Assembly: GCA_003139095.1 (NCBI GenBank) | Contig: PLHW01000044.1 | Location: forward strand, 1,838-65,837 | Reading direction: 5' to 3' | Source of the DNA: Acidobacteriaceae bacterium | Lineage (GTDB): Bacteria; Acidobacteriota; Terriglobia; Terriglobales; Acidobacteriaceae | Length of the DNA: 64,000 bases | Shown: positions 36,366 through 47,759 of the stretch, piece after piece | Position numbering within the stretch: position 1 is the first letter of the stretch | How the letters are laid out: each line of letters opens with the position of its first letter | Position numbers and translations under genes: made by a program | The notes under the pieces: generated by a model | The model's database searches: none | Told to the model about the DNA's origin: nothing | What the model saw: only the letters and a program-made list of their open reading frames with translations

Positions 36366-36992
36366 CTAGGCGACGCTCGTAGTCCCAGTAGGCTCTTGTG
36401 CCTTCACCAACGGTACGTCGACTAAGTGCTCACTCAAAAACCACACCTGAAGCTCATTTCTGCGCAGCACCTCGCTGACCACGAGGTCGTTTGTGCCGTC
36501 ATCCCCAATTGCCGATGCCCGGCGCGCCAGCTTGCGGGTTTCGCCAATGATGATTTGGTGCGCATCGAGTAATCGCGACAACTGGACCGGAACTTCTTCG
36601 CGACCGCGAGGGGGACGCCCGATCTGAGTGGTCTCTGCCACGTCTGCGGCCATGGCCAAACTGACGCCCCCTAGGAGCTGAATTCGTTCGGCGATGGAGT
36701 CGACAAGTTCAACCTGTTCGTCGTAGTGCTTGTCGTAAAGCAGGTGGAGTTGATAAAAAGTGGGACCAGCGACCTGCCAATGGGATTTCTTGTACAGATC
36801 GCGAAGTGTCATCGTATCCGCGAGCAGTTGGTTTAACTGTTCGGTCATCTCCAGGCGTACCGGTTCGTCGAGTTCGAGCGGCAGGGCATGATTTACGGTT
36901 CCGTAGGGCTGGATTTCTCGCGCACGCTGGTGAAAGCGGGGTTGGGCGTTGATGTGATCGGTAGTTTTTGCGTCAGTCTGCTCTTTTCCCAT
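36366..36992 (-). CDS. dps: Dps-family DNA-protection ferritin
   Basis: Dodecameric mini-ferritin that oxidises Fe(II) with peroxide and shields DNA in stress or stationary phase. 208 residues; an N-terminal hydrophilic extension of about 45 residues, then the ferritin helices with LADTMTLRDLYKKSHWQVAGPTFYQLH (in parts; H of SHWQ) and LYDKHYDEQVELVDSIAERI (D and E ligands), the inter-subunit ferroxidase site. The last helices ASAIGDDGTNDLVVSEVLRRNE and WFLSEHLV follow. Length exceeds the usual 160-180 because of the extension. First gene inside the putative island from the left. Confidence 0.92.
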   Translation of the reverse strand: MGKEQTDAKTTDHINAQPRFHQRAREIQPYGTVNHALPLELDEPVRLEMTEQLNQLLADTMTLRDLYKKSHWQVAGPTFYQLHLLYDKHYDEQVELVDSIAERIQLLGGVSLAMAADVAETTQIGRPPRGREEVPVQLSRLLDAHQIIIGETRKLARRASAIGDDGTNDLVVSEVLRRNELQVWFLSEHLVDVPLVKAQEPTGTTSVA

Positions 36993-37073
36993 GGCTTTTC
37001 TCTTTCTGACTCGTAGATTAATTTGCGGACAACGAGTGACACCTAAACCCCAGTTGGCTGTTCCAGCCTGTCC

Positions 37074-37469
37074 CTATGCCGCGACCTTCGCCGCCAAAGT
37101 CTCGACTATAGCGACAGTCTGCATCAGATCCGGTGGCAAGCCATACCGTGTCTGCAGATAGGCTGTGCTGTTGTAAGAAACCCAGACCTTACCGTGAATG
37201 TCTTCCCAGATCAGAATCTTGAGAGGAAGATCGATGGCCATACTCGGGACGGCGAGCATCAGGGGTGTGCCGGCTTTGGGGCTCCCAAAGATCAGCAGCT
37301 TGGTGGGAGGCATTTTCATTCCCGCCTTTTCCGCCTCTCCGCTATGGTCGATTAGAGCAAACAGGGTGGCTCCCGTTGCCCGCAGAATTCCCTTGAGCTT
37401 TTCCACTGTTAGGTCCACGGAATGATTGCATGGCATGTTGATGATCCCTTGGACCGCAGCGACTGTCAT
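37074..37469 (-). CDS. DUF302 protein
   Basis: 131 residues from ATG 37469, preceded by GGAAGGGACT; a longer open frame to 37631 overlaps the protoglobin gene and looks unreal. DUF302 signatures are KLKGILRATGATLFALIDHSGEA (read in parts), KLLIFGSPKAGTPLM and LPLKILIWED with KVWVSYNS. DUF302 proteins are small alpha/beta proteins of unknown function, often with redox or metal genes. It lies 80 bases downstream of the protoglobin gene on the same strand. Confidence 0.85.
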   Translation of the reverse strand: MTVAAVQGIINMPCNHSVDLTVEKLKGILRATGATLFALIDHSGEAEKAGMKMPPTKLLIFGSPKAGTPLMLAVPSMAIDLPLKILIWEDIHGKVWVSYNSTAYLQTRYGLPPDLMQTVAIVETLAAKVAA

Positions 37470-37549
37470 AAGTAGTCCCTTCCTGTTCCTGGACCGCAAG
37501 TCAATCCATCCCAGAAACAAAATAATGGCAGATTCAATCCAAAGATGAG

Positions 37550-38161
37550 TCACCACTCGGTTGGTGGCTGTCTCGTGTCTCCGTACGGGCCGATCCAAAG
37601 CGCTAGCTGCATCTGAATTGACTTGCACCATGCTAGATGCATCTTGGCCACCTCTTCGGCGGAGCTTCCCCTCGCCGCTAGATACGGTTTGATGGTCTCA
37701 TTCATGACCGCGACAAAGGTCATAACGTCGCGAAGCGGCACAAACGGGGTTGATTGAACTCCGTCAACCTGGTTCTTTTTTGCGCTCGTGTGTCGCAGCG
37801 CAATCTCCTGCTGATAGTTGATCCAGTCCTGATCGTAAGGTCGCAGGCAAGTGTCCAGGATCCATTGCTCAAAACGCAGATTACTCTTTGCCAGATACTC
37901 GGGGATTGGTGCCCCCTCCGGAGAACGAGAATGTCTGGCGAGGTTGGGGATGCTGGCGATGATGCCACTGCGCCAATGATCGACGATCTGCTTAGTCTGA
38001 CCGGTGAGCACTTCGCCGGCGAGCTGCAGATAGCGCTGATCCTCCTCCGTAAATCCCGCGCTGGTTTTCAACTTCTCCAAATCCAGGGTCGAGACGGGCG
38101 ACTTGGCTACCGCCGCCGCTCCGTACGAATATCCCGGAATATGTTCGGAGACTCGCTTCAT
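37550..38161 (-). CDS. Protoglobin-domain protein
   Basis: Single-domain haem protein of 203 residues, similar to the sensor globins of globin-coupled signalling proteins and to archaeal protoglobin. Visible are IPGYSYG (N-terminal extension), GFTEEDQRYLQLAGEVL, HWRSGIIASIPNLARHSRSPEG, EQWILDTCLRPYDQDWINYQQEIALRH, where the His of ALRHT is a probable proximal ligand, and PLRDVMTFVAVMNETIKPYL. It binds O2, CO or NO. With no output domain it may scavenge or transfer gas. It follows the SDR gene on the same strand by 31 bases. Confidence 0.88.
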   Translation of the reverse strand: MKRVSEHIPGYSYGAAAVAKSPVSTLDLEKLKTSAGFTEEDQRYLQLAGEVLTGQTKQIVDHWRSGIIASIPNLARHSRSPEGAPIPEYLAKSNLRFEQWILDTCLRPYDQDWINYQQEIALRHTSAKKNQVDGVQSTPFVPLRDVMTFVAVMNETIKPYLAARGSSAEEVAKMHLAWCKSIQMQLALWIGPYGDTRQPPTEW

Positions 38162-38192
38162 GGAGTTCGATCTTTCATTTAGCTAGTGCTGC

Positions 38193-38948
38193 TCAAATCT
38201 GAGCCAGGCCGCCGTCGACAAATAACTCGATACCGTTTACATAACTGCTGTCATCAGAAGCCAAGAACAAAACGGCTTTCGCGATCTCATCGGTGGTACC
38301 GGGACGTCCCAGAGGTATGCCACTGATCGAGCCTTGCACAAACTGGTCGACCTGCTGCTGCGTCATCCCCAGCGAAGTGTTGTAGCCCGGAGTTGGCACA
38401 ACCCCGGGGCTAATCGCGTTGACTCGTATCTTGCGGTCTTTCAGGTCCACACACCAGGTGCGCGCAAATGAGCGCACCGCAGCTTTGGTCGCGCTGTAAA
38501 CGCTAAACGCCTGATTCCCTTTTGTCGAAACAATCGATGCGTTAAGCACGATCGAACCTCCCGGCTGCAGCAAGGGCAATGCCTTCTGCACCGTGAACAA
38601 TAGCCCCTTAACATTCACGTCGAACTGTTTGTCAAAGTGCGCCTCAGTAATTTGGCCAAGCGGAGCGAACTCGCCGGTACCCGCATTGGCAAAGACAATA
38701 TCGAGCTTGCCTTTCTGCTCCTTGACCACCGAGTACACTGTGTCGATGTCCGCCAGTTTTGAGACATCGCCCTGAACACCCGTCACATCATGGCCGATCT
38801 CTTTCACCGCGGCGTCGAGTTCGTTCTTCCGCCGTCCTGTGATGAAAACGTACGCGCCTTCATCCACGAATCGCTTTGCGGTCGCAAGCCCGATCCCACT
38901 GCTTCCCCCGGTAATCACCGCAATTCGCCCTGCAAGTCTCTGCGACAT
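38193..38948 (-). CDS. SDR family oxidoreductase
   Basis: 251 residues: AVITGGSSGIGLATAKRFVDEG, FITGRRKNEL, GDVSKLADI, VFANAGTGE, catalytic Ser in LNASIVST, YSATK, PGVVPTPGYN, and FVDGGLAQI at the end. It is closely related to the SDRs at 23295 and 30180 (identical AKRF/GAYVFIT and TAVQKALPL-like stretches), here without an adjacent regulator. It lies inside the island in the run of minus-strand genes with the protoglobin gene downstream. Confidence 0.92.
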   Translation of the reverse strand: MSQRLAGRIAVITGGSSGIGLATAKRFVDEGAYVFITGRRKNELDAAVKEIGHDVTGVQGDVSKLADIDTVYSVVKEQKGKLDIVFANAGTGEFAPLGQITEAHFDKQFDVNVKGLLFTVQKALPLLQPGGSIVLNASIVSTKGNQAFSVYSATKAAVRSFARTWCVDLKDRKIRVNAISPGVVPTPGYNTSLGMTQQQVDQFVQGSISGIPLGRPGTTDEIAKAVLFLASDDSSYVNGIELFVDGGLAQI

Positions 38949-39037
38949 CTTTACCTCATTCCTGGTTGGATGTTGTGTTGTGCCTATCGCGACCTTCCAC
39001 TTCGAGAACCCGTATCAGCGGGATAACAAACGGCCGC

Positions 39038-39505
39038 TTAAAGACCAAGATCACCCAATCCAGGATGATCATCGGGGCGGCGGCCGAGCACCCAATGATA
39101 TTTGCGATCTGATTCCTTGATTGGAAGATCATTAATGCAAGCGAACCTCAGCCTCATCAGGCCATCATCGTTGAACTCCCAATTCTCGTTGCCATACGAG
39201 CGATACCAGTTTCCTGAGTCGTCGTGCCACTCGTAAGCGAAGCGCACGGCGATGCGGTTATCTGTGAAAGCCCAGAGCTCTTTGATCAGACGGTAGTCGA
39301 GTTCTTTCGTCCATTTACGCGAGAGAAAAGCGATGATGTCCTGTCTTCCATTCACAAACTCGGAGCGGTTTCTCCAGCGCGAATCGAGAGCATAGGCGAG
39401 GGCGACTTTCTCCGCATCTCGCGTGTTCCAACCATCTTCTGCGAGACGCACCTTTTGGATCGCGGTCTCGCGGGTAAATGGTGGTAGCGGCGGTCTGGTT
39501 ATCAT
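39038..39505 (-). CDS. DUF1348 (NTF2-like) protein
   Basis: 155 residues. [69 protein letters not shown] and [24 protein letters not shown] are the DUF1348 landmarks (shown in parts): a cone-shaped NTF2-like fold with an open pocket. Members often accompany SDR and reductase genes; no reaction is known to me. GGGAGAACTC before the ATG is a good ribosome site. It lies 89 bases upstream of the SDR gene on the same strand. Confidence 0.85.
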
Positions 39506-39680
39506 GAGTTCTCCCGTTAACGAATCGAGTCTGATCCTTTGGCGATAATCCCGAATAACCCCCGGTCCCGAATAACCTCCGGTTACGATCGCGACTCCCC
39601 CGAGAGGTCAACGCCTGCAATGATATCCGCCGCCAGGGAACCGGGACCGAAGCCGGACTGTATTGGCTTTTGCGCGGCGG

Positions 39681-39923
39681 TCATGAGGCACGCCTGGAAA
39701 TTACGTCTCCGGTTGGCCCGCCGCACATTTCTCTCGTCAAAGCCGGTCCTTTCGTCGAGAAGTGCTTCGCCATGATCTTGTCGGTCGCTATATAACCCAC
39801 CGTGATAGAGACGATTAGTAAGGCCCCCACGAGCTTTGGCGGGCCCGGCAATGGAATATCAAACCACCTGCAGCCGGCTCCAATCACCAGTCCCAAAATT
39901 AACCCAGCGATGATTTTGATCAT
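39681..39923 (-). CDS. XapX-domain membrane protein
   Basis: 80 residues from ATG 39923 (TGGGGGAAAACAC before it); the frame is open further upstream but that overlaps the Ni/Co permease gene. Two hydrophobic segments (3-18 and 32-48), with IAGLILGLVIGAGCRWFDIPLPGPPKLVGALL (in parts: GLILGLVIGAG, IPLPGPPKLVGALLIV), the XapX/DUF1427 pattern. These small proteins are found with xanthosine permease-like and other transport genes; function unknown. Last gene after the NiCoT permease. Confidence 0.82.
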   Translation of the reverse strand: MIKIIAGLILGLVIGAGCRWFDIPLPGPPKLVGALLIVSITVGYIATDKIMAKHFSTKGPALTREMCGGPTGDVISRRAS

Positions 39924-39948
39924 GTGTTTTCCCCCAATCAGTTCAATT

Positions 39949-40677
39949 TCAAACACTAGCCGATGCACTGTCACCTTCAAATTGATAGGTCGCAGCAAGG
40001 TCGCGGAGCTTCGAGGGCGAAGTACCAGACCGCGCCCAGATGCGAATGCCGATTACCGTAAGGAAAAGCGTGAGCCCTAATGGAAAAGCAAAGCGGCTGA
40101 GGTCCACGCCGGCCAACTCGGCACCACCAAGACCAAACGCAAAGCTCACGACCAGCACACCGAGCATGCGGGAAGCAGCCTTGGCATTTTCACTGCCCGC
40201 GACTGCAAGACGCTGTGTCGCCGCTGCCAGGAATCCGTCCACGCCGTCGACCAAGACCATTCCTCCAGAGAACGCCGCGCCCAACAGCCAAGGATTGGTC
40301 TCCCCGGCAAGGATGAGCGCCGACAACTGCGAAGAGGTTTCGAAGCCGGCCGCGAGAAGCATTCCCAAGAGCAGAGGCTGTGCCACAACAGGACGCGGAA
40401 CAACTCCCACGTGCGAGTCGTTACGGAACAGACGCCACAAGTTCAGCACGCCAATTAAGATCAATGTCCACGGAGCAAGAAAGGCAAATCGCCCCGCCAG
40501 AAATCGTCCGATCCCAACCGCGAGCAGAATGACGACCAATCCGTGCCCGAGTGCGAAGAACACGCCGTTCGTCGAACGTGGTCGAACGCGGGTCAGCCCG
40601 TCAATGGCGGCGAGATGATCCGGATCCGTCCCGTGCCGCATTCCCAGAGCCAGACCGACGATGAGGAGTGCATTCAT
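39949..40677 (-). CDS. Nickel/cobalt transporter (NiCoT family)
   Basis: High-affinity Ni2+/Co2+ uptake permease, 242 residues with about seven to eight membrane helices. Signature RHGTDPDHLAAID (helix II metal site, HX4DH), LGHGLVVILLAVG, LLAAGFETSSQLSAL and SGGMVLVDGVDGFL. The ATG overlaps the stop of the ferredoxin-like gene (ATGA). Position in the operon of a cobalt-type nitrile hydratase-like enzyme suggests it supplies Co2+, as NhlF does in Rhodococcus (established for that system; inferred here). Confidence 0.88.
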   Translation of the reverse strand: MNALLIVGLALGMRHGTDPDHLAAIDGLTRVRPRSTNGVFFALGHGLVVILLAVGIGRFLAGRFAFLAPWTLILIGVLNLWRLFRNDSHVGVVPRPVVAQPLLLGMLLAAGFETSSQLSALILAGETNPWLLGAAFSGGMVLVDGVDGFLAAATQRLAVAGSENAKAASRMLGVLVVSFAFGLGGAELAGVDLSRFAFPLGLTLFLTVIGIRIWARSGTSPSKLRDLAATYQFEGDSASASV

Positions 40678-41096
40678 AGTGCATTCTCGACGGCGACCTC
40701 TGATTTCACCACCGGCTCCGTCAAACGAAATGGATCAAACCGAAGTGCGTCAAATTCCTGCGGCAAGGGCAAGAACCTTTCGGCTGCTTTGGTCAGTGAA
40801 GCCCAATCGACCAAAGCGAGGTACTGGCGGAAGTGGCGAATGTTGCCTAGCCAAACGGACCCGCTGGAACTGGACACGGTAACCACGTTCGGCAAATCGC
40901 AAGGTCCAAGGCATCCGCTGAACGTCAGTTGAATGTTCTTCAGGAGTCCGCGTTGTCGCCATTCCTTCTTTAACCACTCCACAGGAACCTCAGGCCTACC
41001 GCGTTCTATGTGGCCACAGCAGCAACCTTGACACACTGTGATATGGCCAATCACCATGCGTTTTGTAGCTACTGGGTGCTGAAAAGAAGTTGCCAT
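40674..41096 (-). CDS. (2Fe-2S) ferredoxin/thioredoxin-like protein
   Basis: 140 residues from ATG 41096. GHITVCQGCCCGHIERG and LTFSGCLGPCDLPNVV give the cysteine pattern of thioredoxin-fold 2Fe-2S ferredoxins, several of which occur with cobalt or cobalamin genes. ASLTKAAERFLPLP may form a terminal helix. It could donate electrons, or deliver or sense metal for the cobalt enzyme. It starts 5 bases after the DUF2934 stop and overlaps the NiCoT start, so it is translationally coupled in the operon. Confidence 0.8.
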   Translation of the reverse strand: MATSFQHPVATKRMVIGHITVCQGCCCGHIERGRPEVPVEWLKKEWRQRGLLKNIQLTFSGCLGPCDLPNVVTVSSSSGSVWLGNIRHFRQYLALVDWASLTKAAERFLPLPQEFDALRFDPFRLTEPVVKSEVAVENAL

Positions 41097-41100
41097 TCGT

Positions 41101-41367
41101 CTAAGCCGCCGATTGTGATCGGGTGGATTTGTTTCCGGGCGTCGCCTTTGTTTTCTTGTCCGTTGACACCGGCGTAGACAACGCCTTCTCGGCCGCAAAC
41201 CAATCAACTTCAGGTGAGCCGAGAGGACGCCCTCTGCGCTCCCATAGGTCGTAGGCCAACTGTGCGGTGGAATGCCACGCGGCCTCGGTCACCTCAAGTG
41301 CCTCTCCGGCCGATGTGCGAGGCCCACAGCCAGGAACCACATCATTTCCTCCGACGATCGTCTTCAT
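41101..41367 (-). CDS. DUF2934 protein
   Basis: 88 residues. STAQLAYDLWERRGRPLGSPEVDWFAAEKAL is shown in parts: AQLAYDLWERRGRP and PEVDWFAAEKAL, the DUF2934 motif common in acidobacteria and rhizobia. The tail is Lys/Thr/Ser rich. Function unknown. It stands between the small nitrile hydratase-like subunit gene and the ferredoxin-like gene, all on one strand, so it may act in the same pathway. Confidence 0.8.
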   Translation of the reverse strand: MKTIVGGNDVVPGCGPRTSAGEALEVTEAAWHSTAQLAYDLWERRGRPLGSPEVDWFAAEKALSTPVSTDKKTKATPGNKSTRSQSAA

Positions 41368-41452
41368 GCTCTCCGCTCCAGTTGCGATCTCATGAGACTT
41401 GTCAGGCGCCTTCTCGCTCCGTGCGCTTCATTCGCGGTTGTCTCATTGATGG

Positions 41453-41797
41453 TCAATCACATCGAACCGTGTCACCCGAAGAGCGCGATGATACTTCCTC
41501 CATCTTTCTCGCGAGTTCATCTGGCGTAAGGATCTGCTTTTGAAACAGGATGTTCGCGAAGGCGATAATCCACCGCTCGTAATAGGTAAGTTTGCCAACG
41601 ATCTCACCTCCCAGACTCTCAATCCCGCGGCGCTTCTCCTCCGTGTTCACGATCTTGCGGATATCGAGGACGTTGGCCAGCGCATGGCAGCGCTTCTCCC
41701 AGGGAAGGTACTCGTGCTCCACTCGTTCGACAGGGCCGGCGTCGAGCCCACCCAATTCCGTGGGCAGCTGTCTTAGGAGGTTTTCCGTCTGCGTCAT
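41453..41797 (-). CDS. Small subunit matching the N-terminal half of nitrile hydratase beta (or its activator)
   Basis: 114 residues: GGLDAGPVERVEHEYLPWEKRCHALANVL (parts: GPVERVEHEYLPWEKR, CHALANVLDI) and LTYYERWIIAFANILFQKQILTPDELARKM (parts: YYERWIIAFANILF, ILTPDELARK). The W-E-x-R helix and YYERW helix are found in the N-terminal half of NHase beta and in the NHase activator proteins; sequence alone does not separate the two. In thiocyanate hydrolase a separate subunit of this kind exists. Its start overlaps the catalytic-subunit stop by 4 bases (ATGA). Confidence 0.75.
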   Translation of the reverse strand: MTQTENLLRQLPTELGGLDAGPVERVEHEYLPWEKRCHALANVLDIRKIVNTEEKRRGIESLGGEIVGKLTYYERWIIAFANILFQKQILTPDELARKMEEVSSRSSGDTVRCD

Positions 41798-42438
41798 CGC
41801 GTTCTCTCCTTTGCTTCCGGCGTGTTGGCTTTGACCACGCCGATCATGGCGTCCCTCGTGACCAGCGATGCAAGCTGTTCCTCACCGAAGTTCTCAGTGT
41901 TCGGCGGCCTCTGCGGTAACACCAGATAACGCACCATGGATGTCGAATCGCTGACTCGAACCTCAACATCATCCGGAATTACCGTGCCGAACTCGGCCAG
42001 GACCGCCCTTGGCTCTTTCACCGCGCGAGCTCGATAAGGCTTCAGCTTGTACCAGTCCGGCGGCAAGCCGAGAACCTCCCTTGGGTAGCAGGAGCAGAGG
42101 GTGCACACAATAAGGTTGTGGACCTTGTCGGTATTCTGCAAAACGATGAGTTCGGTGTTCTCGAAGAGGTCAATGCCGAATTCTCCAACGGCCGCACGGC
42201 CCTTCTCGAGTAGCCGTGCCCGAAACTCAGGATCGACCCACGCCCTAGCCACCACTTTTGCGCCAAGCGCTGGCGTGCGGGAGTCCATCACTTCGAGCAT
42301 GCGACGGATCTCGTCCGCGCCGATTACTCGCTTTGCAACGAGTAACTCCCGCACCGCGGTTTCCATAATCTCGTAATAACCGAGCGTCGAGTTGCCAGGG
42401 TCGGGGACTGGCGTGTGGGGGTGGGCATGGGCGTTCAT
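41794..42438 (-). CDS. Cobalt-type nitrile hydratase alpha/thiocyanate hydrolase gamma-like catalytic subunit
   Basis: 214 residues. The N-terminus is His/Pro rich (NAHAHPHTP). The metal claw is V-C112-T113-L114-C115-S116-C117-Y-P; Thr113 is the cobalt-type mark (iron enzymes have Ser). Cys115 and Ser/Cys partners are oxidised to sulfinate/sulfenate in known enzymes. GLPPDWYK and RAVKEPRAVLAEFG, RVSDSTSMVRYLVLPQRP match the family. It hydrates nitriles to amides, or hydrolyses thiocyanate to COS and ammonia; the split beta partners favour the latter architecture, but substrate is not settled. Confidence 0.9.
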   Translation of the reverse strand: MNAHAHPHTPVPDPGNSTLGYYEIMETAVRELLVAKRVIGADEIRRMLEVMDSRTPALGAKVVARAWVDPEFRARLLEKGRAAVGEFGIDLFENTELIVLQNTDKVHNLIVCTLCSCYPREVLGLPPDWYKLKPYRARAVKEPRAVLAEFGTVIPDDVEVRVSDSTSMVRYLVLPQRPPNTENFGEEQLASLVTRDAMIGVVKANTPEAKERTR

Positions 42439-42441
42439 CGT

Positions 42442-42774
42442 TCAACTCCTCTCTAACCAAGTCTCGAAAACTTCGATTCGTAGGCCGTCGTCCACCGAAC
42501 CAGCATATTTCGGCCACAATTCAGTGAGGGGGATGGCGATGCGATAGTAGTGGCGCTTTGGGCCAGCATTTCGGCCAAAGCCCTCCTCTTCGTTATTCAC
42601 AGCAGCCGGTTTGATAACCGATTCCACGACACCAGATTTTCCGCGAATGTAGTTCGGTACACGGAAGTGGCCTATCGGAAATCGTTTGGAAATCCTGACA
42701 CTGTCCCCAGCCTTGAAAATCGGTTCCGCGCCTTCGGGCTTGACGACGGTCATTAAGACCTTTGCTGCTGACAT
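42442..42774 (-). CDS. Small subunit matching the C-terminal (SH3-like) half of nitrile hydratase beta
   Basis: 110 residues: FKAGDSVRISKRFPIGHFRVPNYIRGKSGVVE (parts: GDSVRISKRFPIGHFR, PNYIRGKSGVVE), then HYYRIAIPLTELWP and LRIEVFETWLERS. This is the beta-roll end of NHase beta (F..GD.V.......GH.R.P.Y.RGK.G.V), a whole gene here and not fused to the N-terminal half, which lies downstream (41453). Such a split is known for thiocyanate hydrolase alpha. First of the three subunit genes, 30 bases after the MBL gene. Confidence 0.85.
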   Translation of the reverse strand: MSAAKVLMTVVKPEGAEPIFKAGDSVRISKRFPIGHFRVPNYIRGKSGVVESVIKPAAVNNEEEGFGRNAGPKRHYYRIAIPLTELWPKYAGSVDDGLRIEVFETWLERS

Positions 42775-42804
42775 CGACGTGATCCTCCTGTCAGTTTCGA
42801 CCCT

Positions 42805-43761
42805 TCAGACGCCCTGGTACACCAGTTCGAGAAACGCGCTGGGCGTCATAAATGACCTGCCCCACTCGGCGTCATAACGAGCGCCGGGTTTGGAGGCGAC
42901 AACTTCCGCGAGGGTCCTGCCCTGTTTTTTCAGCGTTGCAACCTTGTCCCGCATTTCGACCAAGACGTCCCGGAACAGAATCAGGTCAGCCTTGCCGCCC
43001 ACAGCCCCGTGTCCCCCAATAACGATCGTCTTGTCGTTGACCTTTGACAGGTTTGCCTCCGCCGCTCGTATTTGGCCGTCGATACTGCCTCCGGTCGAGT
43101 AGTCAATGAAAGGGTAATCACGGTTCCAAAAAGTGTCCCCGACATGAAGGATGTCGGCTTCTTCGAAGTGCACAGAGATGTCGGAGTCCGTGTGGGCAGG
43201 TGGGTAGTGCTTGAGGGCAAGAGTGGTGTTATTGCTGTGCACGGCGTATTCCTCGCCGAAGACGGTCGAGGGGATAGCGCCGGAAGGCGCGGCCGGGAAA
43301 GTGTGGTGCCAGCCTTCGACTCGCGTGTCTACCAAAAGATGTTTGCGCGTGTTCTCTTGCGCCAGGATGCTGGCTCCGGCCTCGTGTAGCCACTCATTGC
43401 CGCCCGTGTGATCGAAGTGCCAGTGAGTGTTGATCAATTGCTTGATTGGGTCCGCATTGATGCTCGCCAGCGCTGCGGACACATTCGGACGTGCGGTGAC
43501 GATTTCGGCGTCCACAAGGAGCTTCCCGTCAGGGCCGGTGAGAACAGCGATGTTTCCACCCGGACCCAAGAGAACGCTGATATTGCGACGAAGGGTCTGG
43601 ACCGTGATCTTTGCTGTCGCAGATTCCCTCATTGCCTCAGGGACGAGCTCATCTGCCTGGGCGAAAAGCCCCCGAGGAACAAGGCAGGCCGCGGCAACCG
43701 CGAAACCGCCTGCAACGAGAAATTGGCGGCGTGATACTTCGGTACGTGGTGGGGTGATCAT
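42805..43761 (-). CDS. Tat-exported MBL-fold metallo-hydrolase
   Basis: 318 residues. N-terminus SRRQFLVAGGFAVAAACLV is a twin-arginine signal, so the protein is folded before export, consistent with a metal cofactor. The zinc site motif is NTHWHFDHTGGN (HxHxDH); further ligands fit HYPPAHTDSD, LHVGDTFWN and GGHGAVGG. Related to SoxH/quinoprotein-relay type periplasmic MBL proteins. It heads the nitrile hydratase-like operon and may act on a product, or be an independent hydrolase. Divergent from the DUF6130 gene. Confidence 0.9.
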   Translation of the reverse strand: MITPPRTEVSRRQFLVAGGFAVAAACLVPRGLFAQADELVPEAMRESATAKITVQTLRRNISVLLGPGGNIAVLTGPDGKLLVDAEIVTARPNVSAALASINADPIKQLINTHWHFDHTGGNEWLHEAGASILAQENTRKHLLVDTRVEGWHHTFPAAPSGAIPSTVFGEEYAVHSNNTTLALKHYPPAHTDSDISVHFEEADILHVGDTFWNRDYPFIDYSTGGSIDGQIRAAEANLSKVNDKTIVIGGHGAVGGKADLILFRDVLVEMRDKVATLKKQGRTLAEVVASKPGARYDAEWGRSFMTPSAFLELVYQGV

Positions 43762-44126
43762 TGGCAGCTCCTTGCCAAATTGCTATTGCATGAGCGGTGC
43801 CAATAGAAAGATCGAATCATTCTTCCCCGGAAAATCTAGCGATTCCGCGGCTGATCCTTGGAATTGGCGATTGCCCTCATCGCGAGGAAGTGTCATGAGA
43901 ATGACACCTGACTAAACAGGAGTCAGTGTCGCGTCCTCGTGAATTCTCAAGAGAGCAATTAGGGCCGCAAGCTGGCGTGTCGAGCAAACCGAGATCCCAC
44001 CTAGAAATGACAGGCTAATTTCACCGCTCTTTGAGAGCGTTCTTTCGCGTCGCGAGCTTTGGCAGGAAAAGTGCCGCAAGGGATCCGTGTAGTCGTCGCG
44101 CAAGAAGCCGCATCGGGGGGAAAGTC
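43762..44126. promoter_or_regulatory. Divergent control region of the island
   Basis: All genes to the left to 36.4 kb run leftward from here, all to the right to 54.3 kb rightward, so both large transcripts probably start in these 365 bases. A perfect inverted repeat GTGTCAT-GAGA-ATGACAC (43890-43907) lies near the middle and may be an operator. No regulator gene adjoins it. Confidence 0.5.
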
Positions 44127-44579
44127 ATGAGTCATGTATGGGTCAGCTTCTTGCTACCTGCTGTGGCGCTATTCACATCCACAGTGGCAGCGCAGAGCGC
44201 TAGGGACGTGCGCGGCCCATCACCTCTAATTGCTATCGATAACGAAGCACCGCCTAAGCTCATTGTCGATCCGCCGCTCCCCGAACCGCTGTCGCGAGGT
44301 CTCGTCTTTATCCAATACAGGACGGAGAACTTGCGCGTCCTCCCGGTGTTTGGCAAACGCGCTCTCGAAGTGTCGCCGCGCATCGGCCACGTCCACGTCA
44401 CCGTCGACGAGTCGGGCTGGCACTTTGTGGACGCCAGCGGTGAAACGTTAATCGTGGTCGGTCTCAAACCTGGTCCACACAAGGTATTGATCGAACTGGC
44501 TGACCCTACGCATAGGGTCATCACCAGCGAAACGGTGAGGTTCACGTTGCCCGGCCCTAAACCCCCTGATTCAAAGTGA
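44127..44579 (+). CDS. Exported DUF6130-like protein
   Basis: 150 residues from ATG 44127 (GGGGGGAAAGTC before it). Signal peptide (VWVSFLLPAVALFTSTVAAQ), then a Pro-rich linker and a small beta domain: LIVDPPLPEPLSRGLVFIQYRTENLRVLPVFGK (parts), HVHVTVDESGWHFVDASG and LKPGPHKVLIELADPTHRV. The HVHVTVD ... PGPHKV pattern is that of DUF6130 and DUF4399-type secreted proteins with an Ig-like or cupredoxin-like look. Function unknown. First gene of the rightward arm. Confidence 0.72.
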   Translation: MSHVWVSFLLPAVALFTSTVAAQSARDVRGPSPLIAIDNEAPPKLIVDPPLPEPLSRGLVFIQYRTENLRVLPVFGKRALEVSPRIGHVHVTVDESGWHFVDASGETLIVVGLKPGPHKVLIELADPTHRVITSETVRFTLPGPKPPDSK

Positions 44580-44674
44580 TGTGAGTCCCGTCAAGATATG
44601 ACCGTCTGACACTGGAGTGCTCGCACCCCTTAACGTTGGCAAGTTCTACAGAAAAACATAAGGAGAAGACAACG

Positions 44675-45574
44675 ATGACCACTATCAGCAGTTCCGCAGA
44701 AAACAGCACCGTGCATTACAAGACAGTGCGTATCAATGATCTCGACATTTTCTACCGGGAAGCAGGCGCGAAGGATGCTCCTGTGATCCTTCTCCTGCAC
44801 GGGTTCCCAACCTCTTCGAACATGTTCCGAAATCTGATCCCTCGTCTCGCCGATTCGTTTCACGTAATCGCGCCCGATTATCCCGGTTACGGCCTGAGCA
44901 GCATGCCGGATCACAAGAGCTTCGCGTATACATTTGAGAACTACTCGAAAATTGTCGACCAGCTTGTGGAGAAGCTCGGAGTCAAGAAGTATTCGTTGTA
45001 TTTGATGGATTACGGAGCGCCAGTTGGCTACCGGCTGGCATTGCTGCATCCCGAGCGCGTTGAGGGTCTGATCGTGCAGAACGGAAATGCATACGATGAA
45101 GGGCTGCTCGCATTCTGGGACCCGATCAAGAAATATTGGAAAGACGGCCTACCTGAAAGTCGAGCCGCCATTCAATTCCTGGTGGACCCCAAGTCAACGC
45201 GCTGGCAGTACGAGAACGGCGTGAAAGACTTGACGCTGCTGGACCCGACAACCTGGGCTTTGGACCAGATTGGTCTTGATCGCCCGGGGAACATGGACAT
45301 TCAGATGGACCTGATGTATGACTACCGAACGAACGTTCCCATGTATCCAGAATTCCAGGCCTTCTTCCGGAAGTATCAGCCTCCGACACTGATTGTGTGG
45401 GGCAAGAATGATTTCATTTTTCCAGCGGAGGGCGCTGCACCCTATAGCCGGGATCTGAAGAACATCGAGACGCATCTACTGGACACGGGTCATTTTGCGC
45501 TGGAGACGCACGGAGAAGAGATCGCAAGCCGCATCGAAAACTTCTTAACGAACCAACAACGCAAGGCGGCGTAA
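44675..45574 (+). CDS. Alpha/beta hydrolase with Asp nucleophile (epoxide hydrolase/dehalogenase-like)
   Basis: 299 residues from ATG 44675, preceded by AAGGAGAAGACAACG. LLLHGFPTSSNMFRNL is the oxyanion region, APDYPGYGLS the next strand. The nucleophile elbow is YLMDYGAPVGYRLA, where Asp takes the place of Ser, as in epoxide hydrolases and haloalkane dehalogenases. Acid Asp in VWGKNDFIFP and His in DTGHFALE complete the triad. FWDPIKKYW is in the cap. Start of a run of plus-strand genes with PNPOx-like and chloroperoxidase-like genes. Confidence 0.88.
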   Translation: MTTISSSAENSTVHYKTVRINDLDIFYREAGAKDAPVILLLHGFPTSSNMFRNLIPRLADSFHVIAPDYPGYGLSSMPDHKSFAYTFENYSKIVDQLVEKLGVKKYSLYLMDYGAPVGYRLALLHPERVEGLIVQNGNAYDEGLLAFWDPIKKYWKDGLPESRAAIQFLVDPKSTRWQYENGVKDLTLLDPTTWALDQIGLDRPGNMDIQMDLMYDYRTNVPMYPEFQAFFRKYQPPTLIVWGKNDFIFPAEGAAPYSRDLKNIETHLLDTGHFALETHGEEIASRIENFLTNQQRKAA

Positions 45575-45589
45575 AAGCTCACGAGAGTC

Positions 45590-45615
45590 GCGAGCTGGCG
45601 ACGCAGCCAGTTCGC
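45590..45615. terminator. Hairpin between hydrolase and PNPOx-like genes
   Basis: GCGAGCTGGC (45590-45599) and GCCAGTTCGC (45606-45615) pair over 10 bases with one G-T. It lies 16 bases after the hydrolase stop and ahead of the next gene. No T run; it may lower read-through or shape the mRNA. Confidence 0.35.
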
Positions 45616-45632
45616 GGCCCGGGAGAAACACA

Positions 45633-46274
45633 ATGCCGAACTTTGGATCTCTGGTTTTCACACCAGCCGTTAAGGCCTTGCAAGAGCGGTACGGCAGCCG
45701 TCGGCAGTACGCGCGCCTTGAGGGGTCTGGGTCATCGCCCGCTCGACTGGGCCCAGAGGAGTCAGAGTTCATCGGCGAACGCGACACCTTCTACATGGCG
45801 ACTCTAGGCTCGACAGGTTGGCCTTACGTTCAACACCGAGGTGGCCCGAAGGGCTTTCTGAAAGTGATCGACGAAAGAACCGTGGCTTTCGCCGACTTTA
45901 GGGGAAACAAGCAATACATCAGCACCGGCAACCTGATGACCGACAATCGCGTGGCGATCATCCTGGTCGACTATCCAAGACAGCTACGTCTTAAGATACT
46001 CGGCCGAGTCGAAATCTTCGAAGGTGAACAAGCGCGAGAGTGGATCGAGAAGGTTCGCGATCCGGAGTACAAGGCCTTTACGGAAAGGGTGTACGTAATC
46101 CGCATCGAAGCCTTCGACTGGAATTGCCAACAGCATATTGTCCCTCGCTACACCGAAGAGGAAATTCGAGAAGCTGTCGCCCCTGCAGAAAAGAGAATGC
46201 AGGAGTTAGAGCAAGAGAACGAGAGACTCCGGAAGGAGCTTTCGCGACTAGGCAAGAAGAATGGAAATCCTTAA
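45633..46274 (+). CDS. Pyridoxamine 5'-phosphate oxidase-family flavoprotein
   Basis: 213 residues. [34 protein letters not shown] (parts: [21 protein letters not shown], read to 20) and [37 protein letters not shown] (parts) are the FMN-binding split barrel as found in the FMN-flavin reductase/PNPOx group. The C-terminus has a charged helix (about 175-205, [20 protein letters not shown]) that looks like a short coiled coil. Its stop overlaps the start region of the next hydrolase. Likely FMN-binding; reaction unknown. Confidence 0.85.
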
Positions 46275-46302
46275 CTCAAATCACATCAAAGGAGAAGATG
46301 GC

Positions 46303-47145
46303 ATGCCGACAATCACGACGAAAGATGGGACGCAGATTTATTACAAGGACTGGGGAAAGGGCCAGCCGATAGTGTTCAGTCACGGTTGGCCGCTCACCGC
46401 CGACGATTGGGACGGACAGATGATGTTCTTCGGCCAACATGGCTACCGCGTCATCGCCGCGGACCGGCGAGGGCATGGCCGTTCAGACCAGACTTGGGAC
46501 GGCAACGATATGGACACCTATGCCGATGATCTCGAGGCCCTCACTGCCAAGCTTGACCTCAAGAACGCGATCCATGTTGGCCACTCCACCGGCGGTGGAG
46601 AAGTTGCCCGCTACATTGGCCGGCATGGCAGCAAGCGTGTCGCGGGGGCGGTTCTGATCAGCGCCGTACCGCCGCTGATGGTGAAGACGGACAAGAATCC
46701 TGCGGGCGCGCCCATCGAGGTGTTCGACGGCCTGCGCGCCGAATATCTTAAGAATCGGCCCCAGTTTTACAAGGACATCACCCTGCCGTTTTACGGCTAT
46801 AACCGGCCCGGCGCCAAGATTTCAGAAGGCATCCGGGAAAAGTGGTGGCTCCAGGGGATGATGGGTGGGATGAAGGCGGGCTACGACTGCATTAAGGCTT
46901 TCTCCGAGACGGACTTCACTGAGGATCTAAAGAAGTTTGACATGCCCACTCTCATTCTTCATGGCGACGATGACCAGATCGTGCCCATCGGTGCGGCCGC
47001 CTTGCAGTCTGCAAAGCTTGTGAAGGGTGCAACGCTTAAAGTGTACCCAGGCTTTCCACACGGAATGCCCACCACCCAAGCAGACACCATCAATGCCGAT
47101 CTGCTCGCGTTCATCAGACAAAACGCACGAGAAAAAGCGGCGTGA
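46303..47145 (+). CDS. Alpha/beta hydrolase, non-haem chloroperoxidase-like
   Basis: 280 residues from ATG 46303 (AAAGGAGAAGATGGC before). Typical cofactor-free perhydrolase/chloroperoxidase: [26 protein letters not shown] at the start (parts), [14 protein letters not shown], nucleophile elbow [14 protein letters not shown] with Ser, acid Asp in HGDDDQIVP, and His in FPHGMPTT. Members act as esterases or, with organic acids, perhydrolases. The reading begins just after the PNPOx-like gene with a short overlap region, so it is probably in the same mRNA. Confidence 0.92.
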
Positions 47146-47154
47146 TCCACATCG

Positions 47155-47187
47155 GCCGGTGCATGTGCCCCTGGCACGTGCACCGGC
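47155..47187. terminator. Strong hairpin after the chloroperoxidase-like gene
   Basis: GCCGGTGCATGTGCC (47155-47169) pairs with GGCACGTGCACCGGC (47173-47187): a 15-bp stem with one mismatch and a 3-base loop, 10 bases after the stop codon. A likely terminator despite the lack of a long T run. Confidence 0.6.
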
Positions 47188-47249
47188 TTCACCAAAACAG
47201 ACTGATAAGAATGTCTGACGTTTCACAATCTTGCTCTAGAGGTGCGCTG

Positions 47250-47759
47250 ATGCAACAGAAACATGCACGAATTCTCGGCTTCGTTGGAACCTTGTTGTTG
47301 CTGGGCGCTGTTTCGGCGCAGACAACCGGCTATGACGTTGCATTCCCAAGTGGGTTGCGGGATTGGTTCGAGGTGAATTCTATGATTGTCACCAAGGACA
47401 GCCCTATCTTCGGTCAACTCGGTGGCATGCACTTGATCCACGTGAACGCGAAGGGATTGACGACGCTCAAGAACGGCGGCCCGCTCCCTTATCCTGACGG
47501 AACGGTCTTCGCGGATGACGTTCACGAATTTTCTCTGAAGGATGGTTCCTACGTCGAAGGAAACAAGAAGGCGATAGCGGTGATGGTGAAGGATGCGAAG
47601 AAGTATCCTACGACTGGCGGTTGGGGATTCCAGGTGTGGGGCGGAGGTGATCCGTCGAAACCACTCGTTCCTGACGTCGCTCACGCTATCACGGCGTGTT
47701 TCGCCTGCCACACACCACAAAAGGAACAGGACTATACGTTTTCAACCTACATTCCGTGA
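47250..47759 (+). CDS. Cytochrome P460-family protein
   Basis: 169 residues from ATG 47250; an upstream in-frame ATG at 47211 also exists. Signal peptide (ILGFVGTLLLLGAVSAQ), then YDVAFPSGLRDWFEVNSMIV, DGTVFADDVHEF, AIAVMVKDAKKYPTTGGWGFQVWGG (parts) and, near the end, one haem c site CFACH (ACFACHTPQ). P460 cytochromes carry a cross-linked haem and oxidise hydroxylamine in the periplasm; many non-nitrifier relatives are of unknown role. The conserved Lys in VMVKDAKKY region is a candidate cross-link. A mono-haem periplasmic redox protein is secure. Confidence 0.83.
   Translation: MQQKHARILGFVGTLLLLGAVSAQTTGYDVAFPSGLRDWFEVNSMIVTKDSPIFGQLGGMHLIHVNAKGLTTLKNGGPLPYPDGTVFADDVHEFSLKDGSYVEGNKKAIAVMVKDAKKYPTTGGWGFQVWGGGDPSKPLVPDVAHAITACFACHTPQKEQDYTFSTYIP

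Follow-up and report, generated by a model that had tools for sequence, protein, structure and literature searches.

Which enzyme is made when the β subunit of a nitrile hydratase (NHase), an industrial catalyst, is divided between two small genes, and how would such an enzyme receive its cobalt? These questions are raised by eight minus-strand genes at positions 39681–43761 of what we call the window, a 64,000-nucleotide stretch of contig PLHW01000044.1 from an Acidobacteriaceae bacterium (assembly GCA_003139095.1). The original prediction, made from the letters of the DNA, described these genes as one cluster, and Pfam and NCBIfam models confirmed the assigned families except for a ferredoxin without a Pfam match. 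We read the locus as a noncorrin Co(III) three-chain hydratase, gained horizontally, beside which a NicO-type permease and the ferredoxin form a local cassette for cobalt supply and maturation; we give this reading a probability of a little under 0.6. The three-gene split is already known, and the ferredoxin partner is the new part.

Judged by sequence, an α chain with stand-alone βC and βN chains is a three-subunit cobalt hydratase of the NHase superfamily. The catalytic α gene (41794–42438; PF02979 NHase_alpha, 3.3e-77) carries the cobalt claw CTLCSC at residues 112–117 (C112-T-L-C115-S116-C117), where it had been predicted. The proposed division of β into two small genes also held: 42442–42774 encodes βC, the SH3-like C-terminal half of NHase β (PF02211 NHase_beta_C, 3.3e-17), and 41453–41797 encodes βN, the helical N-terminal half (PF21006 NHase_beta_N, 8.6e-16). 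Each half has a conserved arginine, R56 in βN and R38 in βC, the latter being the invariant β-C arginine, present without exception in the 55 rows of its own class and throughout the other classes. We equate these residues with the arginines numbered 52 and 157 in the NHase literature, which agrees with the PDB titles BR52A and BR157A. The α chain falls below both equivalog cut-offs, that of NHase (TIGR01323; 241.3 bits against 249.85) and that of thiocyanate hydrolase (SCNase) (TIGR03887; 209.5 bits against 291.45).

The split is widespread. A contig scan with α as the query, which reaches close relatives first and thus favors the window's own group, gave 62 loci. The group with the order βC-α-βN comprises 58 loci. 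Among them, 55 have the whole trio intact, a set that takes in four plasmids and the window and places the arrangement in the window far beyond chance; in the three incomplete members, βC lies in two frames (L004) or was not found, with α within ∼100 bases of a contig end (L021 and L024). The order βN-βC-α occurs at 31 further loci, of which 30 are complete and one (L168) is cut by a contig end. The split is therefore not new, because these 58 and 31 loci join the known SCNases and a published three-subunit enzyme, toyocamycin NHase (TNH; PMC8574189). At L058:4396–5451, βN is fused ahead of α in a single frame, with βC ∼1 kb away on the opposite strand. Another unusual frame, L063:3182–4756 at the end of a Bacteroidetes metagenome-assembled contig, joins an NHase α fragment to an outer-membrane-like protein (by eye) and may be a chimera.

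Phylogeny of the catalytic subunit, a comparison proposed along with the original prediction, was run as a quick IQ-TREE analysis of 96 rows, for which the βC-α-βN group was thinned to 31 of its 58 rows and 6 duplicates were dropped. The α chains of the group, that of the window among them, make up one clade (SH-aLRT 97), apart from the SCNases, which form another (99); the exact neighborhood of the SCNases is unsure because long branches were flagged. For the small subunit at 41453–41797, the original prediction had left a choice between N-terminal half and activator, and the first is the one that stood: the NCBIfam scores were 2.7e-12 for nitrile_beta vs. 0.019 for nitrile_acc, and a βN tree of 115 rows and 102 columns (few columns for that many rows) put all 24 classical activators in one clade (97) and the window βN in a 33-row set (95) with the other βN of its group, SCNase βN, SCNase activators, and the βN of L097. 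An ordinary NHase with βN as its activator, the outcome foreseen if βN grouped with activators and a full-length β lay elsewhere in the genome, is ruled out by the profile scores, the βN tree, and a search of the window genome in which PF21006 matched once, at the split βN itself, and no other β-N match was found; PF02979 likewise matched once, leaving no other NHase α. The PF21006 search could miss a P15K-type activator, because the SCNase activator of L152 matches no NCBIfam model.

The real novelty of the operon is the ferredoxin, whose family is tied to cobalt handling and, elsewhere, to the NHase activator. This thioredoxin-like, cobalt-associated protein is encoded by a separate 140-aa gene (40674–41096, starting at 41096) that lies 356 bases past βN on the same strand, with the DUF2934 gene between them. 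No Pfam family matched it up to E 1 (PF01257 included), and NCBIfam matches to 2Fe-2S ferredoxins were weak (0.0073). Six cysteines, arranged as C22-x2-C25-C26-C27 ... C62-x3-C66, are invariant in 21 sequences including that of the window. The family profile matched the N-terminal part of hydrogenase subunit B (7t2r_B, 2.4e-6; HydB 7q4v_B, 4.3e-5) and, weakly, other [2Fe-2S] proteins. The spacing C-x4-C...C-x3-C, formed by C22, C27, C62, and C66, is kept with respect to 7t2r_B, in which the four aligned cysteines bind the cluster.

Relatives of this ferredoxin recur in cobalt contexts. Among 396 genomes of the phylum, 36 had a match: a stand-alone gene in 17, the domain within frames of 1453–1790 aa in 12 (one genome had both), a contig-edge piece in one, and weak matches in seven. 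The long frame of Granulicella, which resembles those in genomes of the same family, was verified as CobN with the ferredoxin domain at its N terminus, and 6 of 7 plasmid matches lie within an annotated CobN. Stand-alone ferredoxin genes sit beside CbiM, CbiQ, and CobW (L131); ArsP and CobW (L132 and L133); CobO and FecCD (L139); a TonB receptor and a periplasmic binding protein (L137 and L138); HupE (L122, L127, and L129); NicO and CobW (L130, CobW by eye); and CbiM/CbiO/CobW-like genes (L125, by eye). The evidence points to the ferredoxin as a putative, previously undescribed helper in cobalt enzyme assembly. More tentatively, and at not quite even odds, we suggest a dedicated family of cobalt ferredoxins in which a NuoE/HydB-type [2Fe-2S] domain with an extra cysteine pair serves nascent cobalt at every site of cobalt insertion: as a fusion with CobN for B12, as a fusion with the activator for classical NHase, and as a free protein beside the split NHase of the window.

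Linkage to NHase was observed in eight genomes of four families, the window included (samples of 396, 162, and 18 genomes). In two genomes of one genus, activator and ferredoxin are fused in a single frame (G237 L124:9540–10316 and G827 L215:2952–3785) that stands as the third gene after α and a full-length β; the activator parts match TIGR03889 at 2.1e-24 and 9.6e-27, respectively, both above the 46-bit cut-off. The ferredoxin gene lies ∼600 bases before α in G912 and ∼2.5 kb from α in G140 and G234. Among the 396 genomes, 24 had an NHase α (E < 1e-30), 17 a stand-alone ferredoxin, and 7 both (Fisher p 1.6e-5, or 1.1e-4 without the window genome, both values ignoring kinship). Two NHase α genes of the phylum (L122:2169–2879 and L124:8136–8879) have, by eye, a twin-arginine-like leader, suggesting exported NHases. 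On a Parageobacillus plasmid (NZ_CP063415.1, L189:3066–9902), NHase β, α, and accessory genes are followed, in this order, by genes for an amidase, a PF01257 ferredoxin, and a cobalt ECF transporter, a second type of ferredoxin tied to NHase and cobalt import. That ferredoxin was considered as a direct homolog of the window's and rejected: it has no significant BLASTP match and belongs to PF01257, and the plasmid cluster is thus a parallel, unrelated case.

The predicted cobalt importer is the NicO-type nickel/cobalt permease at 39949–40677 (PF03824, 4e-12), in agreement with the claim that the operon has an importer of its own. Cobalt importers of several kinds lie near 38 of the 58 loci of the βC-α-βN group. 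In another genome of the window's family (G061), a ferredoxin-NicO pair is adjacent, its NicO matching at 5.2e-73 and its ferredoxin 50% identical. The nearest named relatives of the window α in the tree are proteobacterial. No NHase α was found in 23 other genomes of the genus (completeness 71–100%), and a gene 18 kb from the operon is 88–91% identical in three of them, which together indicate horizontal gain within a native contig. Several window genes recur near the group's split NHases (counts of 58, window included): DUF302 (37074–37631) at 24, DUF6130 (44124–44579) at 9, an alpha/beta hydrolase (44672–45574) at 21, a PNPOx-like protein (45633–46274) at 8, and cytochrome P460 (47223–47759) at 6. 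Given these recurrent neighbors and the family-local ferredoxin-NicO pair, the operon looks like a foreign enzyme placed beside a local cobalt cassette.

From homologies, gene orders, fusions, linkage, and phylogeny, we propose a scheme for the cobalt content, assembly, redox role, and substrate of this system. The split NHase would have come by horizontal transfer from a proteobacterial βC-α-βN lineage. NicO would import cobalt, and apo-α would meet βN, an activator homolog that is produced immediately after α. Cobalt would then be inserted and held by α through C112, C115, and C117, after which the metal and two cysteines would be oxidized. The ferredoxin would serve cobalt insertion and maturation, most likely as an electron carrier for the Co/Cys redox steps and possibly also as a cobalt holder through its extra cysteine pair. 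Finally, βC would complete an active site to which βN and βC would contribute one arginine each.

Several observations weigh against the part given here to the ferredoxin. Beside a split NHase it was seen in the window alone; the f62 and f45 operons, like the activator fusions, belong to NHases of the classical two-subunit type. The ferredoxin search gave no match in 50 genomes that carry other split NHases (46 from the window's group), which implies that such enzymes do not generally need it, and of the 24 genomes with an NHase in the phylum sample, 17 had no stand-alone copy. In G218 and G338, the ferredoxin adjoins β and activator genes and α lies on different contigs; in G135, ferredoxin and NHase are ∼163 kb apart; at L217 and L218, no NHase domain was found within 8 kb of the ferredoxin, and at L134 and L136, no cobalt link appeared among the neighbors tested. 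A single-sequence AlphaFold model of the ferredoxin reached a pLDDT of only 36, and the binding of a cluster and possibly of cobalt by the window protein is a prediction.

The alternative that survives best is that split NHases mature themselves. The free βN, an activator homolog, would act as a subunit-swapping chaperone, the activator gene would not have been kept, and the ferredoxin would be optional; we regard this as a serious contender at somewhat less than even odds. Classical operons with a full-length β (26 loci, or 20 distinct ones after 6 duplicate places were dropped) have a βN-like activator in 19 of 20 cases, the exception being L061, and an accessory protein is annotated in 5 of 7 classical plasmid reference operons (not in L185 or L187, the latter having a small unnamed gene there). 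In contrast, a second βN-like gene within 2.5 kb of α was found in 0 of 89 split non-SCNase operons, a count in which 23 βN-first loci had flanks of ≤1.5 kb and contig ends truncate L021, L024, and L168. For 22 of the 50 genomes that carry split NHases, the split βN is the sole PF21006 match, which is an upper bound because the genome of L005 is counted although a second βN-like copy exists that the scan missed; in most of the other genomes, the extra PF21006 matches resemble a separate full-length β and activator ∼0.7 to 1.5 kb apart. The missed copy, in Pseudomonas abietaniphila, is an open reading frame on a long branch (L005:11099–11365), separated from the split operon by ∼4.5 kb. Position and sequence also favor self-maturation: βN directly after α takes the activator's place in β-α-activator operons, and all 59 βN rows of the group carry Cys37-His38, a pair shared by just one of the 96 other βN-like rows, that of L097, which is the group's nearest βN-first relative. 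However, a P15K-type activator could be overlooked as well, 12 of the 20 distinct classical loci come from one genus, and the SCNases, likewise split, have an activator-like gene behind βN-βC-γ in 5 of 6 loci (none in the 1.5-kb flank of L157). In the βN tree, this SCNase gene (L152–L156) groups with SCNase βN and not with NHase activators, a placement (on long branches) that would fit an origin by duplication of βN.

The original prediction took the three-gene split as the design of SCNase, a reading that found no support: the SCNases are a separate clade, the split is widespread, and α misses the TIGR03887 cut-off, which six loci pass among 300 sampled genomes of one order. Membership among the SCNases is ruled out by cut-off, clade, and gene order. 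A functional thiocyanate hydrolase in the window, converting SCN− to COS and ammonia, would be a distinct case, and we think it improbable. Such a function would fit the three separate subunits, the α and βN clades near SCNase, and the structural matches of βN, whose AlphaFold model (36-row alignment, pLDDT 82) has SCNase β 2dd4 as its best fold match (Foldseek E 5.1e-4, TM 0.67 by query, rmsd 8.8) and whose best PDB match is also SCNase β. It would fit, too, the arginine (Arg120) that follows CSCYP in all six SCNases, where 24 of 27 classical rows have Trp (the others being Arg in L061, Phe in L185, and Leu in L187); two PDB entries named cobalt NHase α, 4ob1 and 3vyh, read CYPW and CYPR in an otherwise identical stretch, and we take 3vyh to be an engineered mutant made to probe SCNase vs. 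NHase specificity. The same arginine, however, occurs in 31 of 31 rows of the window's group, 31 of 31 βN-βC-α rows, and one fused row (69 in total with the SCNases), and its presence in every βN-first split α means that by itself it is no SCNase marker. Moreover, βC has a Co-type NHase β as its best PDB match (3qyh, 6.5e-13, vs. 2.9e-7 for SCNase), SCNase βC differs at the Gly35, His36, and Pro40 positions, and no P15K-like gene was seen in the window. Arg120 and the Cys37-His38 pattern suggest that the pocket is polar and that the substrate is small and either polar or anionic, from which we infer a polar nitrile of small size or an anion resembling thiocyanate.

That ferredoxin and NicO are a general cobalt or B12 supply that landed in the operon by chance is likewise doubtful: the G061 pair has no NHase domain in its surrounding 15 kb and most of the examined ferredoxin relatives sit with B12 or cobalt genes, but seven further genomes, from three other families, show linkage to NHase, two of them as an activator fusion, and in the window the ferredoxin gene overlaps NicO and lies 356 bases past βN on the same strand.

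The first gene of the cluster (42805–43761) encodes a metallo-β-lactamase-fold (MBL) protein (Pfam Lactamase_B, 6.2e-18) with a Tat-like leader (TAT_signal below cut-off). A SaxA-like isothiocyanate hydrolase was considered for this protein and dropped, its six PDB matches at E ≤ 1e-5 all being named β-lactamases. The DUF2934 protein (41101–41367; PF11154, 8.5e-11) and the XapX membrane protein (39681–39923; NCBIfam TIGR03510, 2.7e-14) are probably incidental; single-sequence searches of the flanks with these short proteins gave no match at the other 57 loci of the βC-α-βN group, and both were dropped as conserved partners. Of the three partners first singled out as unusual, then, the ferredoxin kept its place through its ties to cobalt and the NHase activator, the MBL protein has homologs at 25 of the 58 loci (window included), and DUF2934 did not hold up. 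Nor do overlaps of 4 bases tie most genes, as had been stated: they occur at 2 of 7 junctions (α/βN, 41794–41797; ferredoxin/NicO, 40674–40677), and the other five are gaps of 30, 3, 85, 4, and 25 bases. Together with a ferritin-like gene, the neighbors described above surround the operon over positions 36366–47759, and the recurrence of several of them beside other split NHases hints at a transferred stress or detoxification island. Near 38 of the group's 58 operons (L002–L062 and L099–L102) there is an aquaporin (MIP), a possible channel for substrate or amide; none was found in the 14 kb searched around the window operon.

How cobalt enters NHase and what drives oxidation of the metal and of two claw cysteines are unsettled, and a review that calls activators indispensable for full activity (PMC7193024) considers three mechanisms: self-subunit swapping, direct metal transfer, and a redox role for the activator. 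An α-activator complex is necessary for maturation, according to PMC3511329. The large split group described here, with its lack of a visible activator gene, sits uneasily with the published picture. In the open-licence literature, and judging by titles and the opening lines of abstracts, we found no account of a ferredoxin in NHase maturation and, among the matches listed, none of the ferredoxin domain of CobN, both weak negatives. The two natural activator-ferredoxin fusions and the CobN-ferredoxin fusion offer a concrete, directly testable candidate for the cobalt entry and oxidation steps of NHase maturation; if the proposal is true, the cobalt ferredoxin would be a missing redox or metal-handover component in models of both NHase maturation and the aerobic cobaltochelatase. 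Split enzymes with no visible activator gene provide a second handle on maturation, as a free βN may be its own chaperone.

Set against known systems, the window enzyme shares with classical Co-type NHase the claw CTLCSC, both β arginines, and a cobalt importer nearby, as in the Rhodococcus and Parageobacillus plasmid examples. The classical enzyme has a single full-length β, an activator gene, and usually Trp after CSCYP, whereas the window has two separate β genes, a βN that is not an activator, no second PF21006 match in its genome, and Arg. In the window the ferredoxin gene stands behind the subunit genes, apart from the intervening DUF2934, a position comparable to that of the activator gene in classical operons. 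With the SCNases (L152–L157), the window shares three separate subunits, a split β, a Co-type claw, the Arg after CSCYP, and the βN fold; they differ in their own clade, in the order βN-βC-γ, and in the activator-like gene that usually follows, and the window scores far below their cut-off. TNH, likened to the window by description only, is an (αβγ)2 enzyme of three subunits (PMC8574189), with one larger α chain of 21.2 kDa and two small chains of 10 and 11.4 kDa. The ferredoxin, finally, shares the C-x4-C...C-x3-C spacing with the thioredoxin-like [2Fe-2S] domain of HydB and differs from it in having no Pfam match, in the additional invariant C25 and C26, and in its cobalt-linked contexts.

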